6,942 bases of DNA from Prevotella sp. (GTDB lineage: Bacteria; Bacteroidota; Bacteroidia; Bacteroidales; Bacteroidaceae). The translations under genes were made by a program, and so were the position numbers. Below are positions 1,123-6,873 of the stretch, piece by piece (the first letter of the stretch is position 1; each line of letters begins with the position of its first letter). The stretch spans positions 1-6,942 of the forward strand of contig JAJQAI010000110.1 in NCBI GenBank assembly GCA_021203915.1, given 5' to 3'. Under the pieces are notes generated by a model, which was given only the letters and a program-made list of their open reading frames with translations, searched no databases and was not told where the DNA came from.

Positions 1123-1530
1123 TTAAATAGAAACGTCTTGCAACTCTTTTCCAATTAAACGAAGTTCATTTAGGATATGTTCTTCTCTTTTCTTTGAAGG
1201 CTTCTTCGTACCATTAGCGTATGCCGCAAGGAGACTTTGTTGTACACCCAATCGACGAGCTACTGCCGACATATTTAGCTCTGGATGAGATAGCAAAACC
1301 TTTGAGATGCCATGAGGTTCGGGTTCATCATAGAAAAAACTATCAAAACTAACGTCCTCATCTAACGCTTCCCATCTAATGCCAAATGCATTTATCTTAT
1401 AACTGGCACGTTGCTTGTCAGTAGCATACCTTAAACGGGGATAGTATAGTAGCGACTGCCACAAAGTTTGACCCTCGTTAGTTAGCCCATAAAGCCTACC
1501 ACCTTCAAACCAAATCTTTTCTATCTTCAT
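1123..1530 (-). CDS. DUF2442 protein with C-terminal helix-turn-helix
   Basis: A 135-aa protein with two parts. Residues 1-68 form a DUF2442 domain, seen in the opening MKIEKIWFEGGRLYGLT, the LWQSLLYYPRL stretch at 23-33, and GIRWEALDEDVSFDSFF at 50-66. Residues about 83-112 form an XRE-like helix-turn-helix (LNMSAVARRLGVQQSLLAAY, then NGTKKPS). This fused arrangement is common in Bacteroidota. DUF2442 genes are often found beside DUF4160 genes in small toxin-antitoxin-like pairs, and here the DUF4160 reading frame ends 18 nt upstream. The helix-turn-helix makes this the likely DNA-binding partner and autorepressor, with the inverted repeat at 1821-1838 as the obvious candidate operator. The gene appears intact although its partner is frameshifted. 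Family assignment is confident; the antitoxin and repressor roles are inferred from context. Confidence 0.88.
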   Translation of the reverse strand: MKIEKIWFEGGRLYGLTNEGQTLWQSLLYYPRLRYATDKQRASYKINAFGIRWEALDEDVSFDSFFYDEPEPHGISKVLLSHPELNMSAVARRLGVQQSLLAAYANGTKKPSKKREEHILNELRLIGKELQDVSI

Positions 1531-2914: not shown

Positions 2915-3652
2915 TTAGAAATCGTATTTAATATCTTCTAAAAATAGCGCATTAGCAGGCATACTTTCTCCTGCCATAGAGCGGTTCTTACTAGTAATTA
3001 CACCATTAAATTCCTCTATGCTCATACGCTCACGACCCACTTCAAAAAGAGTACCCACAATGGCTCTTACCATGTTTCTTAAAAAACGATCGGCAGTTAT
3101 TCTAAAATGCCAAGAATTTTCATCATCTCTTACCCATTGGGCCTCCTTAACATGACAAATCATTGTTTTGGCAGAAGAATTACTCTTACAAAAGGAAGAA
3201 AAGTCTTCGTTAGAAAGTAAAACCTTTGCTGCCTGGTTCATCTTTTCAAAATCAAGATTATAGGGAGATTCAAAAGAATAAGCCCGTTTAAATGGGTCTT
3301 TTTGAAGATGAACATAGTAATGGTAAGTTCTTTCTTTAGCACTAAAACGAGCGTGAAGATCTTCCACCACTGGTATTACCTTATCTATTGATATATCTTT
3401 AGGAAGAAGTCTGTTTAGCTTATATGTAAGTTGGGAGGTATCTATTTCCCTTTCTATATCAAAATGAGCTACCATCCTTCGAGCATGAACACCAGTATCA
3501 GTGCGACCTGCCCCAACAATATTAACATCTTCGGAAAGAAGTATACTTAAGGCCTTTTCTATTTCCTCTTGGATAGACGAGGAGTTAGGTTGACTTTGCC
3601 AACCATGATAATGGGTTCCATCATATTTTAAAAAGATAAAATACCTATTCAT
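2915..3652 (-). CDS. truA: tRNA pseudouridine(38-40) synthase TruA
   Basis: This enzyme isomerises uridines 38-40 of the tRNA anticodon arm to pseudouridine and works as a cytosolic homodimer. The 245-aa protein is of normal bacterial length. The family motifs appear in order: KYDGTHYHGWQ at 9-19, the catalytic loop GAGRTDTGVHA at 47-57 with nucleophile Asp52, HARFSAKERTYHYYV at 100-114 with the conserved Tyr110, and FLRNMVRAIVG at 190-200 (RNA-binding and dimer core). The C-terminal APAxGL-type motif reads PANALFLEDIKY, with Asn and Ala replacing the common Gly-Leu, a small divergence. The gene lies 66 nt below the stop of the unknown cassette gene and probably has its own promoter, marked by the -7 element at 3685-3692. 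A perfect hairpin touches its start codon. The transporter gene follows 52 nt downstream. Confidence 0.96.
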   Translation of the reverse strand: MNRYFIFLKYDGTHYHGWQSQPNSSSIQEEIEKALSILLSEDVNIVGAGRTDTGVHARRMVAHFDIEREIDTSQLTYKLNRLLPKDISIDKVIPVVEDLHARFSAKERTYHYYVHLQKDPFKRAYSFESPYNLDFEKMNQAAKVLLSNEDFSSFCKSNSSAKTMICHVKEAQWVRDDENSWHFRITADRFLRNMVRAIVGTLFEVGRERMSIEEFNGVITSKNRSMAGESMPANALFLEDIKYDF

Positions 3653-3718: not shown

Positions 3719-4594
3719 CTATCTATCATAAAGTTTACGGGCATCATCTGCAGCTTGAGGGAAAACCAATTCATTAAGCCAAGCTTTAACTTTTTCTGGA
3801 ACCCTATTTGCATCCTCCTCATCCAAATGGAAAGCATGAAACGTACAAGAGCCTTTGTTTTCTAGTCTAAACTCAATATACTGCCCATACTTATCATCAT
3901 AAAAATAAAGAGCCCTCGAATCTTCTCCAACTGCCTTAGCAAGCATCTTAGCAGCTTGCTGTCTGCTACACATTAAAACTGATACTTTTTCTCCCTTATT
4001 CGTTGGAGTTGCACCTTTACCATACTCTCCATGCTTAGGATTCAATTTAAAATTTCTTTTAGGTCTTCTATTATTCTCAAACCAATTAGCTACATCACGT
4101 ATCTCTAAATCCCGTACTTCGATTTCATATTCTTTTCCATCACAATTAGTTGAAATAGAGCCTTTGTTACACTTAATAGCGTTGCAATTAATCAACAAGT
4201 ACGTATTATCTTTTGCCAAGATTATCCGCTCTGTCATTTCACACAAAGTGTCATTTTCTATGGGGCTTGTGTAATATGTATAATTTTTCTGTGATACTTG
4301 TTTAGGATTTTTACGCCAATTTTCTCCCCATTTGACCATAGCGTCTTGAAAAATATGGTTTTCTAGCATTGGATAGTCTTCGTCAGTTTTTGATACGTCT
4401 AAGAATGCTTTTATATTTTCCTCATCATAATACCTTGCTTGACTTTCTATTTCAACAAATAATGTGACCTCTGTTATACTTTTAGCGATATTTCTTAGGG
4501 TATTAGGTCCATCTTCCCTATCTCGAATATAGAAAGGCTGCGAAGTAACATCTTTTCTTTTAGGTAGTAACAAAAAAAGTTCACTTTTAGACAT
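3719..4594 (-). CDS. protein of unknown family, third gene of the DUF262/AAA cassette
   Basis: I do not recognise this 291-aa soluble protein; it has no signal peptide or membrane segment. It appears to have two parts. Residues 1-175 are mixed, with an N-terminal hydrophobic strand (ELFLLLP), a region of three cysteines spaced C137-x4-C142-x8-C151, and charged strands (EYEIEVRDLEIRD). A basic linker, NNRRPKRNFKLNPKHGEYGKG at 174-194, leads to a compact C-terminal domain of about 195-275 containing SVLMCSRQQAAKMLAKAVG, YFYDDKYGQYIEFRL and FHAFHLDEED. His188, His253 and His256 are the only histidines after residue 180 and could be functional, but this is a guess. The ATG lies 2 nt after the ATPase stop, which implies translational coupling and a shared task. 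It could be the effector or the substrate adaptor of the cassette; no named domain supports either choice. Confidence 0.85.
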   Translation of the reverse strand: MSKSELFLLLPKRKDVTSQPFYIRDREDGPNTLRNIAKSITEVTLFVEIESQARYYDEENIKAFLDVSKTDEDYPMLENHIFQDAMVKWGENWRKNPKQVSQKNYTYYTSPIENDTLCEMTERIILAKDNTYLLINCNAIKCNKGSISTNCDGKEYEIEVRDLEIRDVANWFENNRRPKRNFKLNPKHGEYGKGATPTNKGEKVSVLMCSRQQAAKMLAKAVGEDSRALYFYDDKYGQYIEFRLENKGSCTFHAFHLDEEDANRVPEKVKAWLNELVFPQAADDARKLYDR

Positions 4595-4596
4595 GT

Positions 4597-5730
4597 CTAA
4601 AAACCAGCTAATATTTTATAGTCTATAATTATTTGGTCAAAGAAGCCCTTTGGCGCTTTTTTTAAACGACCTGTTTGAGTGGCTTCTAAACAAATAGGTT
4701 TGGCTATGTGATTTTTCTCATCTCTTTCAAAGTAGTAGATTGACAACATCTCTGGTGTAATACAACCTTTGTTAAGAGCAACAAGACTTCCATTTACAAT
4801 ATGGTCACTATGCGTCTCAACTATAACCTGAACGCCATTCTTAGCTACCATGGCCATCAACTTTGCTAATTCTGCTTGGCCATAAGGATGGAGATGAGCT
4901 TCTGGATTTTCTATGACGATTAATGCTCCAGGCTTAGCAGATAACAATGCAACTATCACAGGCAAAGTATATGATATACCATACCCTATATTTTCACCAC
5001 TTAGGTCTTTTAGACCTTTTTGGCCCTCAATACCATTGTAATCATATATTACTAAAAATGAATTATCATCTTGGCTTTTCTGAACCTTAAATGTAATATT
5101 TGGACTTATTCGTTGTTCCCAATATATAGTCTGACTCATCAAGCTTAAATCTGTTTCCTTACCATTAGTATAGTCCTTTATTACATTTTCACTACCAAAA
5201 TTAAAGAGGTAAGAAGCAACAAGTTCCCCTTGTCCATAATTTAAAGATATTTGCTTTTTAGTTACGACCTCATAAGAATCATTGGGAAATCTACTTCTAC
5301 CTCCCCAGCGATTAACGCTTATATATTGAAAATCACTATTAAATAAAGATAGAGATTCTAAATTTTTGTCAGATACATTTTCGCTATAGAATTTCTTTTC
5401 CAAAAAAGTATTTCCAAAATTTGAAAGCTCAGCATTAAACTGGAATGAAAACTTTTCATCGTGTTCATCAATTATATTAAACTCTATTTCCCCAATATCA
5501 GCAAATCTATAAAGAGCATCATTCCCTGTCCCAATAGAACAAAGAGGATAATTTAGATCCAAGCCCTCCATTAATCTTCCTTTACGGAGAGATTGGCGAA
5601 GTAACAATAACGCTTGAATTATGCTCGTTTTACCGCTACTATTAGTTCCTGTCAATACCGTTAGATTACTTAAGTCTATCTCCGTATTCTGATGACATTT
5701 AAAATTTTTAATAATTAGCTTCTTAATCAT
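4597..5730 (-). CDS. AAA ATPase, DUF3696-type (SMC/ABC-like)
   Basis: A 377-aa ATPase of the single-chain, OLD/RecF-like AAA group. The N-terminus MIKKLIIKNFKCHQNTEIDL is typical of SMC/RecF-like proteins. Walker A is GTNSSGKTS at 28-36. Residues 239-257 (GLKDLSGENIGYGISYTLP) occupy the signature-motif position, ALIVIENPEAHLHP at 269-282 is the Walker B region, and VIVETHSDHIVNG at 302-314 is the switch/D-loop stretch seen in these ATPases. The C-terminal GRLKKAPKGFFDQ at 354-366 matches the end of DUF3696 proteins. There is no TOPRIM or other nuclease domain after the ATPase, unlike Gabija GajA or OLD nucleases, so any nucleic-acid cleavage must come from a partner. The gene starts 12 nt after the DUF262 gene and ends 2 nt before the unknown gene. 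It is probably the ATP-dependent sensor or switch of the cassette, by analogy with other defence ATPases. Confidence 0.92.
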   Translation of the reverse strand: MIKKLIIKNFKCHQNTEIDLSNLTVLTGTNSSGKTSIIQALLLLRQSLRKGRLMEGLDLNYPLCSIGTGNDALYRFADIGEIEFNIIDEHDEKFSFQFNAELSNFGNTFLEKKFYSENVSDKNLESLSLFNSDFQYISVNRWGGRSRFPNDSYEVVTKKQISLNYGQGELVASYLFNFGSENVIKDYTNGKETDLSLMSQTIYWEQRISPNITFKVQKSQDDNSFLVIYDYNGIEGQKGLKDLSGENIGYGISYTLPVIVALLSAKPGALIVIENPEAHLHPYGQAELAKLMAMVAKNGVQVIVETHSDHIVNGSLVALNKGCITPEMLSIYYFERDEKNHIAKPICLEATQTGRLKKAPKGFFDQIIIDYKILAGF

Positions 5731-5742
5731 ATATACCTTTGT

Positions 5743-6873
5743 TTAGTCAAGAACATCATGTAGAACATTGTTAAAAGTAGAAAACCTTTTCTTTACAGAA
5801 TCTTTCGTTGCTGTACCAGTAGTAAATGAGTTATAGTATGATGTATTGTTTTTCATTTCATAAATAAGGCGCTCTTTAAAAACTTCTTTTCTTTTTAACA
5901 AAATCTTTGCTTCATCTTCCGATAGTCTTGAAAAGTTGACTGAAATAACTTCAAAATAAGCCTTGTTTAAACTTCTTTTTTTATCAGACTTGCTTTTCCT
6001 TATTCTAAAAGCATCGTCTTCAAAAATTTTACTTGCAAGCTCCATGGCTTTAATGAAATCAACCTTCATACCGCTTAATACATTATCGTCATATTGTCCA
6101 TACTTGATTTTTTTCATATTAATATTAATAAAATTATCAAGGTCTGGTATGTTATACTCTTTATAGCTTGTTAGATAGAAAGAAACAAAACGAGAAACAA
6201 AGTCCATGTCTTTTTTCCTTTTAGTCGGAATCTTATATGAAGTGGCTTTTAGAAATGATTCTTCCTTGGAAAGTTCTTTTACTATATCTATTGCTTTGCC
6301 GACATAGATAGCATTTCTAATTTCTTGAGGTAATAAAGTTATTCCGCCTGTATTCAATCTTTCAAACAAAATATACTTCACATCCTCTGGGGTTCCTCTT
6401 TCAAGAACGTTAACCGTAACAGGAAGTGTTCTAACATCTCTTTGATCCTCAAAAGAAAGATCATCATATTTTTTTCCTTCAAATTTTTCTGATAGAAATT
6501 CTAGGTTTTCCAAAGACAACGTTTTATCAACACAAAAGTTGCGTATAGCACAACATCTTTGAAGACCATCGATTATCCTCCATTCCTTTTTATTAACTTC
6601 TTCAAAATAGAAAGCAGGAAGACGTAAACCTATTAATATTGATTCAATTAAACGACTTTGTTGGGTATTATCCCATAGATTTTGCTCACGCTGATAATCA
6701 GCCCCAAAATTTATAACATTTTGTTCTATTTTATCAATAAATTCTCCCATATTCATAGGAGGCGTACTTAGACGAATATCATTGGGAGAAAATGGCACTA
6801 TCTTTTTTTCACAATCCATCTTTTCTTCCTTTTCTATATAATCTGATACTATTGATAACGTTTCTTCTTTCAT
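5743..6873 (-). CDS. DUF262 (GmrS-N/ParB-like fold) protein without HNH domain
   Basis: This 376-aa protein opens with a variable tail of about 35 residues followed by a DUF262 domain. Visible motifs are ADYQREQNLW at 58-67, SRLIESILIGLRLPAFYF at 73-90, the nucleotide-site motif IIDGLQRCCAI at 100-110 (DGLQR in place of the more usual DGQQR), and FERLNTGG with LPQEIRNA at 170-188. The C-terminal half (about 210-376) is helical and charged, ending in TGTATKDSVKKRFSTFNNVL, and shows no DUF1524/HNH nuclease motif. DUF262 domains act as NTP-dependent modules in GmrSD and in SspE. In-frame codons above the ATG reach a stop within about 25 nt, so this start is secure; an inverted repeat sits directly before it. 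It is the first gene of the cassette in this window, although the promoter was not found and could lie beyond the end. The reading frame looks more A/T-rich than dapA. Confidence 0.92.
   Translation of the reverse strand: MKEETLSIVSDYIEKEEKMDCEKKIVPFSPNDIRLSTPPMNMGEFIDKIEQNVINFGADYQREQNLWDNTQQSRLIESILIGLRLPAFYFEEVNKKEWRIIDGLQRCCAIRNFCVDKTLSLENLEFLSEKFEGKKYDDLSFEDQRDVRTLPVTVNVLERGTPEDVKYILFERLNTGGITLLPQEIRNAIYVGKAIDIVKELSKEESFLKATSYKIPTKRKKDMDFVSRFVSFYLTSYKEYNIPDLDNFININMKKIKYGQYDDNVLSGMKVDFIKAMELASKIFEDDAFRIRKSKSDKKRSLNKAYFEVISVNFSRLSEDEAKILLKRKEVFKERLIYEMKNNTSYYNSFTTGTATKDSVKKRFSTFNNVLHDVLD

Follow-up and report, generated by a model that had tools for sequence, protein, structure and literature searches.

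Three adjacent genes on the minus strand, at positions 3719–6873 of a 6,942-nucleotide (nt) stretch of Prevotella sp. DNA (contig JAJQAI010000110.1, the window), are by profile match likely to constitute the Menshen (NsnABC) anti-phage system, which is a known system and not a new one. On balance it is probable that two of the products, NsnA and NsnB, sense infection and gate the third, NsnC, whose predicted C-terminal BECR-fold RNase domain would cleave RNA, either tRNA or another kind, and thereby halt the infected cell.

Identity of the three genes

NsnA (5743–6873) is a DUF262 protein of 376 residues with a ParB/Srx-like GmrSD_N domain (Pfam, E = 7.6e-18), and the IDGLQR motif at 6556–6573, which belongs to the nucleoside triphosphate (NTP) pocket of DUF262 (PMC10952713, in excerpt), is intact. 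DUF1524 has no Pfam match in NsnA or in any of the seven window proteins scanned. NsnB (4597–5730) is an OLD/ABC-type ATPase of 377 residues with Pfam matches to AAA_15 (8.6e-32), AAA_21, SMC_N and a C-terminal DUF3696 (9e-9), with none to Toprim, and with intact Walker A (GTNSSGKT, residues 28–35, at 5626–5649), IENPEAHLHP and ETHSDH motifs. The product of the third gene, NsnC (3719–4594, 291 residues), belongs to no family found in Pfam or NCBIfam. The models of PADLOC-DB cover the three proteins nearly from end to end, with E-values of 1.1e-113 for NsnA (residues 13–375), 5.7e-101 for NsnB (residues 1–375) and 3.6e-59 for NsnC (model PDLC03909, residues 20–275); NsnB also gives weaker matches to GajA, Old and AriA, and no PADLOC profile other than NsnC is matched by NsnC. 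Since PADLOC-DB names all three proteins the trio corresponds to a described system, Nsn being presumably the gene prefix of Menshen, a system that is reportedly from Millman et al. 2022. None of the papers among the matches listed prints the Nsn gene names together with the Menshen system, and Menshen is not mentioned in PMC10568477. Menshen carries a DUF262 gene, and the loss of this gene abolishes phage resistance (PMC10952713, in excerpt).

The genes follow each other in the order A-B-C with spacers of 12 nt (NsnA–NsnB) and 2 nt (NsnB–NsnC), and the open reading frame (ORF) coordinates thus agree with a preliminary description of this DNA, made from the letters alone, as do its DUF262 protein without a nuclease domain and its SMC-like ATPase with DUF3696. 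Its proposal of a three-gene defence cassette is likely to be right given the profile matches, and its placing of the third protein outside any recognised family holds for Pfam and NCBIfam but not for PADLOC-DB. That the exact trio matches no named system was wrong, as the PADLOC profiles cover it and the layout is also that of ptuXYZ; the PADLOC check which it had suggested returns the catalogued NsnABC, against novelty, and the outcome that it had named as a refutation, a set that is part of a system described before, is in this respect what was found. A new defence system is therefore ruled out, with all three genes matched by PADLOC.

A search in a database of 5.8 billion entries gave 88 other NsnC relatives at E ≤ 1e-3, some of them fragments, and scanning genome contigs with the NsnC alignment turned up 11 loci, which belong to Butyricimonas and further Bacteroidales, Capnocytophaga, a Cytophagales bacterium, Candidatus Magnetominusculus and a Nitrospirae bacterium. 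NsnB adjoins NsnC in 10 of the 11 and NsnA is present in nine, and the misses are explained by contig ends, one locus (L025) starting at the end of its contig and another (L029) 231 nt before NsnB. The NsnB–NsnC spacer is 1–3 nt in nine of ten loci and 78 nt in L031, counted in L027, L032 and L033 from the furthest upstream in-frame ATG. With this number of NsnC relatives and a trio that recurs as a unit in distant bacteria, the arrangement is not due to chance, the gene-neighbourhood co-occurrence expected in the preliminary description is borne out, and the third gene is no local accident of this genome. In a Porphyromonadaceae genome (L027:6816–9994) the operon order is NsnB-NsnC-NsnA and not A-B-C. 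In L026 (404–6721) a type I restriction HsdR gene stops about 100 nt before NsnA, and Menshen might thus be part of a restriction operon here; the flank scan used ten ORFs picked by eye from those of nine loci, and its count of 4 of 9 is a lower bound rather than a statistic.

Matches to NsnA at E ≤ 1e-3, mostly weak, are present in 15 of 60 genomes, the own genome included. NsnA and NsnB stand together outside the window at L003, L004 (only the start of NsnB), L005 and L017, in three genomes from other families of the order, and a locus of the same genus (L019) has a distant NsnB next to a weak NsnA match that was found only in the 60-genome scan; all five loci include about 1.5 kb on each side. 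The NsnC profile matched two of 395 genomes of the class, namely the own genome and one other (1.5e-6, profile positions 142–275). No NsnA relative was confirmed by the scan of viral contigs, NsnC has no match in PHROGs at E 0.01, and searches of PDB sequences with NsnC and NsnA gave nothing useful.

NsnC as the candidate effector

The AlphaFold2 model of NsnC (mean predicted local distance difference test score, pLDDT, 88.8) has two domains. Residues 1–167 (4094–4594) form an alpha/beta, Rossmannoid and perhaps PIN-like domain that may have a docking or structural role, while residues 168–280 (3755–4093; pLDDT of the domain model 83.3) have as best structural neighbours the CdiA-CT complex (5t87), YxiD (9v8i), RelE, HigB and ParE, with scores that are weak but consistent, and from which we infer a BECR fold. 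With the whole protein Foldseek gives no match at E ≤ 0.001, the top rows being thioredoxin reductases of low probability with 5t87 at rank 33, and the BFVD fold search likewise has no match at E ≤ 0.001. PMC9086364 names neither 5t87 nor the organism it comes from. A protein search with the domain only returned seven proteins, five of them already in the alignment of closer relatives (A1, 80 of the 89 NsnC proteins, nine being left out as short or, in one case, fused), one known but outside it (P0064) and one new (P0090). Five relatives of 175–194 residues (P0065, P0066, P0070, P0086 and P0087) start within the N-terminal domain and keep the full C-terminal domain, and could be truncated genes, genes with late starts or one-domain effectors.

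In 19 NsnC rows chosen for diversity, down to 24% identity (A2), 15 positions are invariant, among them N185, P186, K187, H188, G189, E190, D233, H253 and H256, and in 46 chosen rows, some partial (A3), P186 to E190 are invariant with H253 and H256 at ≥90%. Mean conservation in A2 is 0.59 for residues 168–280 and 0.43 for the part that precedes them, whereas in A1 the two values are close (0.72 and 0.67). The NPKHGE motif (K187, H188 and E190, at 4025–4042) and the HAFH motif (H253 and H256, at 3827–3838) are from this conservation predicted to be catalytic. The tRNase YxiD has a BECR fold and loses its activity on mutation of K446, H447, H521, K524 or H528 (PMC12700104, in excerpt). The conserved NsnC residues resemble this site: each protein has a KH pair and, further along the chain, two histidines, at +65 and +68 from H188 in NsnC and at +74 and +81 from H447 in YxiD, counted as sequence spacing. 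YxiD and CdiA-CT differ in that they act in competing cells, into which they are delivered, and come with an immunity protein, whereas NsnC shares its operon with an ATPase.

In PARIS it is AriA, an OLD-type ATPase, that recognises a phage protein and then turns on an effector which cuts tRNA (PMC12839542, in excerpt). By analogy, NsnB might keep NsnC inactive until phage infection leads to its release or activation, NsnA might serve through its DGxQR pocket as an NTP-dependent second sensor or licence, and active NsnC would then cut RNA, presumably the target, so that the cell stops before phages mature (abortive infection). The effector part of the earlier suggestion that the third protein is an effector or adaptor fits the BECR RNase domain predicted in the model. 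Naming NsnC as the likely effector makes Menshen testable, with candidate residues, tRNA cleavage and a protein expected to be toxic alone, and should NsnC be an RNase that the ATPase keeps in check, Menshen would resemble PARIS in its mode of action while using another toxin.

Related systems and alternative readings

Like Menshen, the window has a three-gene operon in the order A-B-C in which all three proteins match Nsn profiles over nearly the full length, but its NsnC belongs to the PDLC03909 type, from which the three plasmid NsnC proteins examined differ. The ptuXYZ operon encodes a DUF262 protein that lacks DUF1524, an ATPase similar to PtuA, and a third protein in which a PIN-like domain devoid of catalytic residues is combined with a YoeB-related BECR domain (PMC11980606, 2025, in excerpt). 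Pfam finds the first two components, the DUF262 protein lacking DUF1524 and a P-loop ATPase, in the window as well, and going by the published description the third may be alike, the window NsnC having a perhaps PIN-like alpha/beta domain and a putative BECR-fold domain; PtuZ is, however, YoeB-related, whereas the window NsnC has NPKHGE...HxxH and its best structure matches are the CdiA-CT complex and YxiD. Because the operon layouts agree, as compared by description, the two names probably stand for one system, and the two literatures may describe the same operon; the word Menshen is absent from the main text of PMC11980606, and no other relevant paper on ptuXYZ is among the matches listed.

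In PARIS, as in the role proposed for NsnABC, an OLD-type ATPase controls an effector which cuts RNA and so brings the infection to an abortive end (by analogy with the excerpt of PMC12839542), but the trio has a DUF262 protein and no Toprim AriB, and NsnB matches its own profile far better than that of AriA (5.7e-101 against 1.4e-33). PARIS is ruled out, as neither NsnB nor NsnC has a Pfam Toprim match and NsnC matches no AriB profile of PADLOC. Gabija is likewise excluded, with NsnB lacking a Toprim match and no GajB-type helicase among the seven window proteins, on a contig that ends 69 nt upstream of NsnA, and Septu is rejected with no HNH (PtuB) match in these proteins and NsnC matching only NsnC profiles in PADLOC. 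The type IV restriction systems GmrSD, BrxU and SspE share with the trio a DUF262 with the DGxQR motif and differ from it by DUF1524; they are discarded, as NsnA has only GmrSD_N.

It is unlikely that Menshen acts by DNA damage, with the OLD-type NsnB or NsnA working on DNA and NsnC as an adaptor or DNase. The excerpt of PMC10952713 refers to the partner in Menshen as a predicted OLD nuclease and credits one component with an OLD-family Toprim domain, and the weaker profile matches of NsnB point the same way, but by Pfam NsnB lacks Toprim and any other nuclease domain and NsnA lacks DUF1524, and the KH and HxxH residues that are invariant in 19 relatives belong to NsnC. A modification-dependent restriction, where NsnA recognises modifications of phage DNA in the manner of GmrSD or SspE and NsnB and NsnC do the cutting, would account for the DUF262 domain and its DGxQR motif, which GmrSD, BrxU and SspE have too (PMC10952713, in excerpt), and is improbable given that the DUF1524 nuclease of that group is absent by Pfam and that the predicted fold of the NsnC effector is that of RNase-type toxins.

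Two further readings have very little probability. One places an active PIN-type nuclease in the N-terminal alpha/beta domain of NsnC and lets the C-terminal domain merely bind; PIN and other Rossmannoid folds give similar scores for this N-terminal domain. The other, held to be equally far-fetched, is a stability or toxin-antitoxin-like module with NsnB as the antitoxin and phage defence as incidental, and would be in line with the tblastn matches of NsnB in 51 of 72,556 plasmid records, 26 with a match that spans ≥80% of the query, and with the resemblance of the C-terminal NsnC model to polymorphic and toxin-antitoxin toxins, but the abolished phage resistance on loss of the DUF262 gene (PMC10952713, in excerpt) argues against it, and the trio in the window adjoins truA and not plasmid genes.

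An NsnC of the window type was found in none of the 72,556 plasmid records (tblastn, E 0.01). Four plasmid loci were opened, and three carry a DUF262 gene, an ATPase gene and a third gene, while at the fourth, from Nostoc, none of the annotated neighbours is a DUF262 gene. The third proteins of the three loci match other NsnC profiles and not the PDLC03909 type, which supports a Menshen composed of a constant NsnA-NsnB pair and an exchangeable NsnC, although this profile comparison is thin with three plasmid rows. The plasmid NsnC proteins P0096–P0098 (L071, L073 and L074) have a common C-terminal pattern H-x-K...RLH...G that is not seen in the window NsnC, and might correspond to the YoeB-like type described for ptuXYZ. 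A wider reading, possible but held with less confidence than the gated RNase itself, is that NsnA and the NsnB ATPase form a fixed sensing chassis for unrelated RNA-cutting toxins, that the payload in the window is a tRNase of the polymorphic-toxin type (KH...HxxH, like CdiA-CT and YxiD) silenced by the ATPase and not by an immunity protein, and that Menshen and ptuXYZ are one system.

Genomic neighbourhood

The draft genome carrying the trio consists of 336 contigs (1.64 Mb, 71.7% complete), and the contig end lies only 69 nt upstream of NsnA. On the 3' side and on the same strand follow truA (2915–3652), an EamA transporter gene (1945–2862), a small DUF2442 gene and dapA. From NsnA to truA the ORFs of at least 60 residues are the trio and one antisense ORF of 67 residues within NsnA. 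The pair truA-EamA is kept in all five relatives opened around truA and dapA is nearby in three of them, while the gene upstream of truA varies, as judged by eye, and tblastn gives no match to the trio at this site in the five. The G+C content is 0.31–0.35 in the trio and 0.36–0.40 in the neighbours, and the trio looks acquired, the G+C offset being too small as proof.

The DUF2442 protein encoded between dapA and EamA (1123–1530, minus strand) has a weak C-terminal match to a helix-turn-helix, and its gene looks inserted, because dapA and EamA are 94–191 nt apart in the three relatives where both are retained (L066, L067 and L068). Upstream of it, at about 1545–1784 on the minus strand, a short frame runs into a stop and the open text continues in another frame. 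It reads like the start of what we take to be a DUF4160-type protein, and is probably the broken partner gene of the DUF2442 gene.

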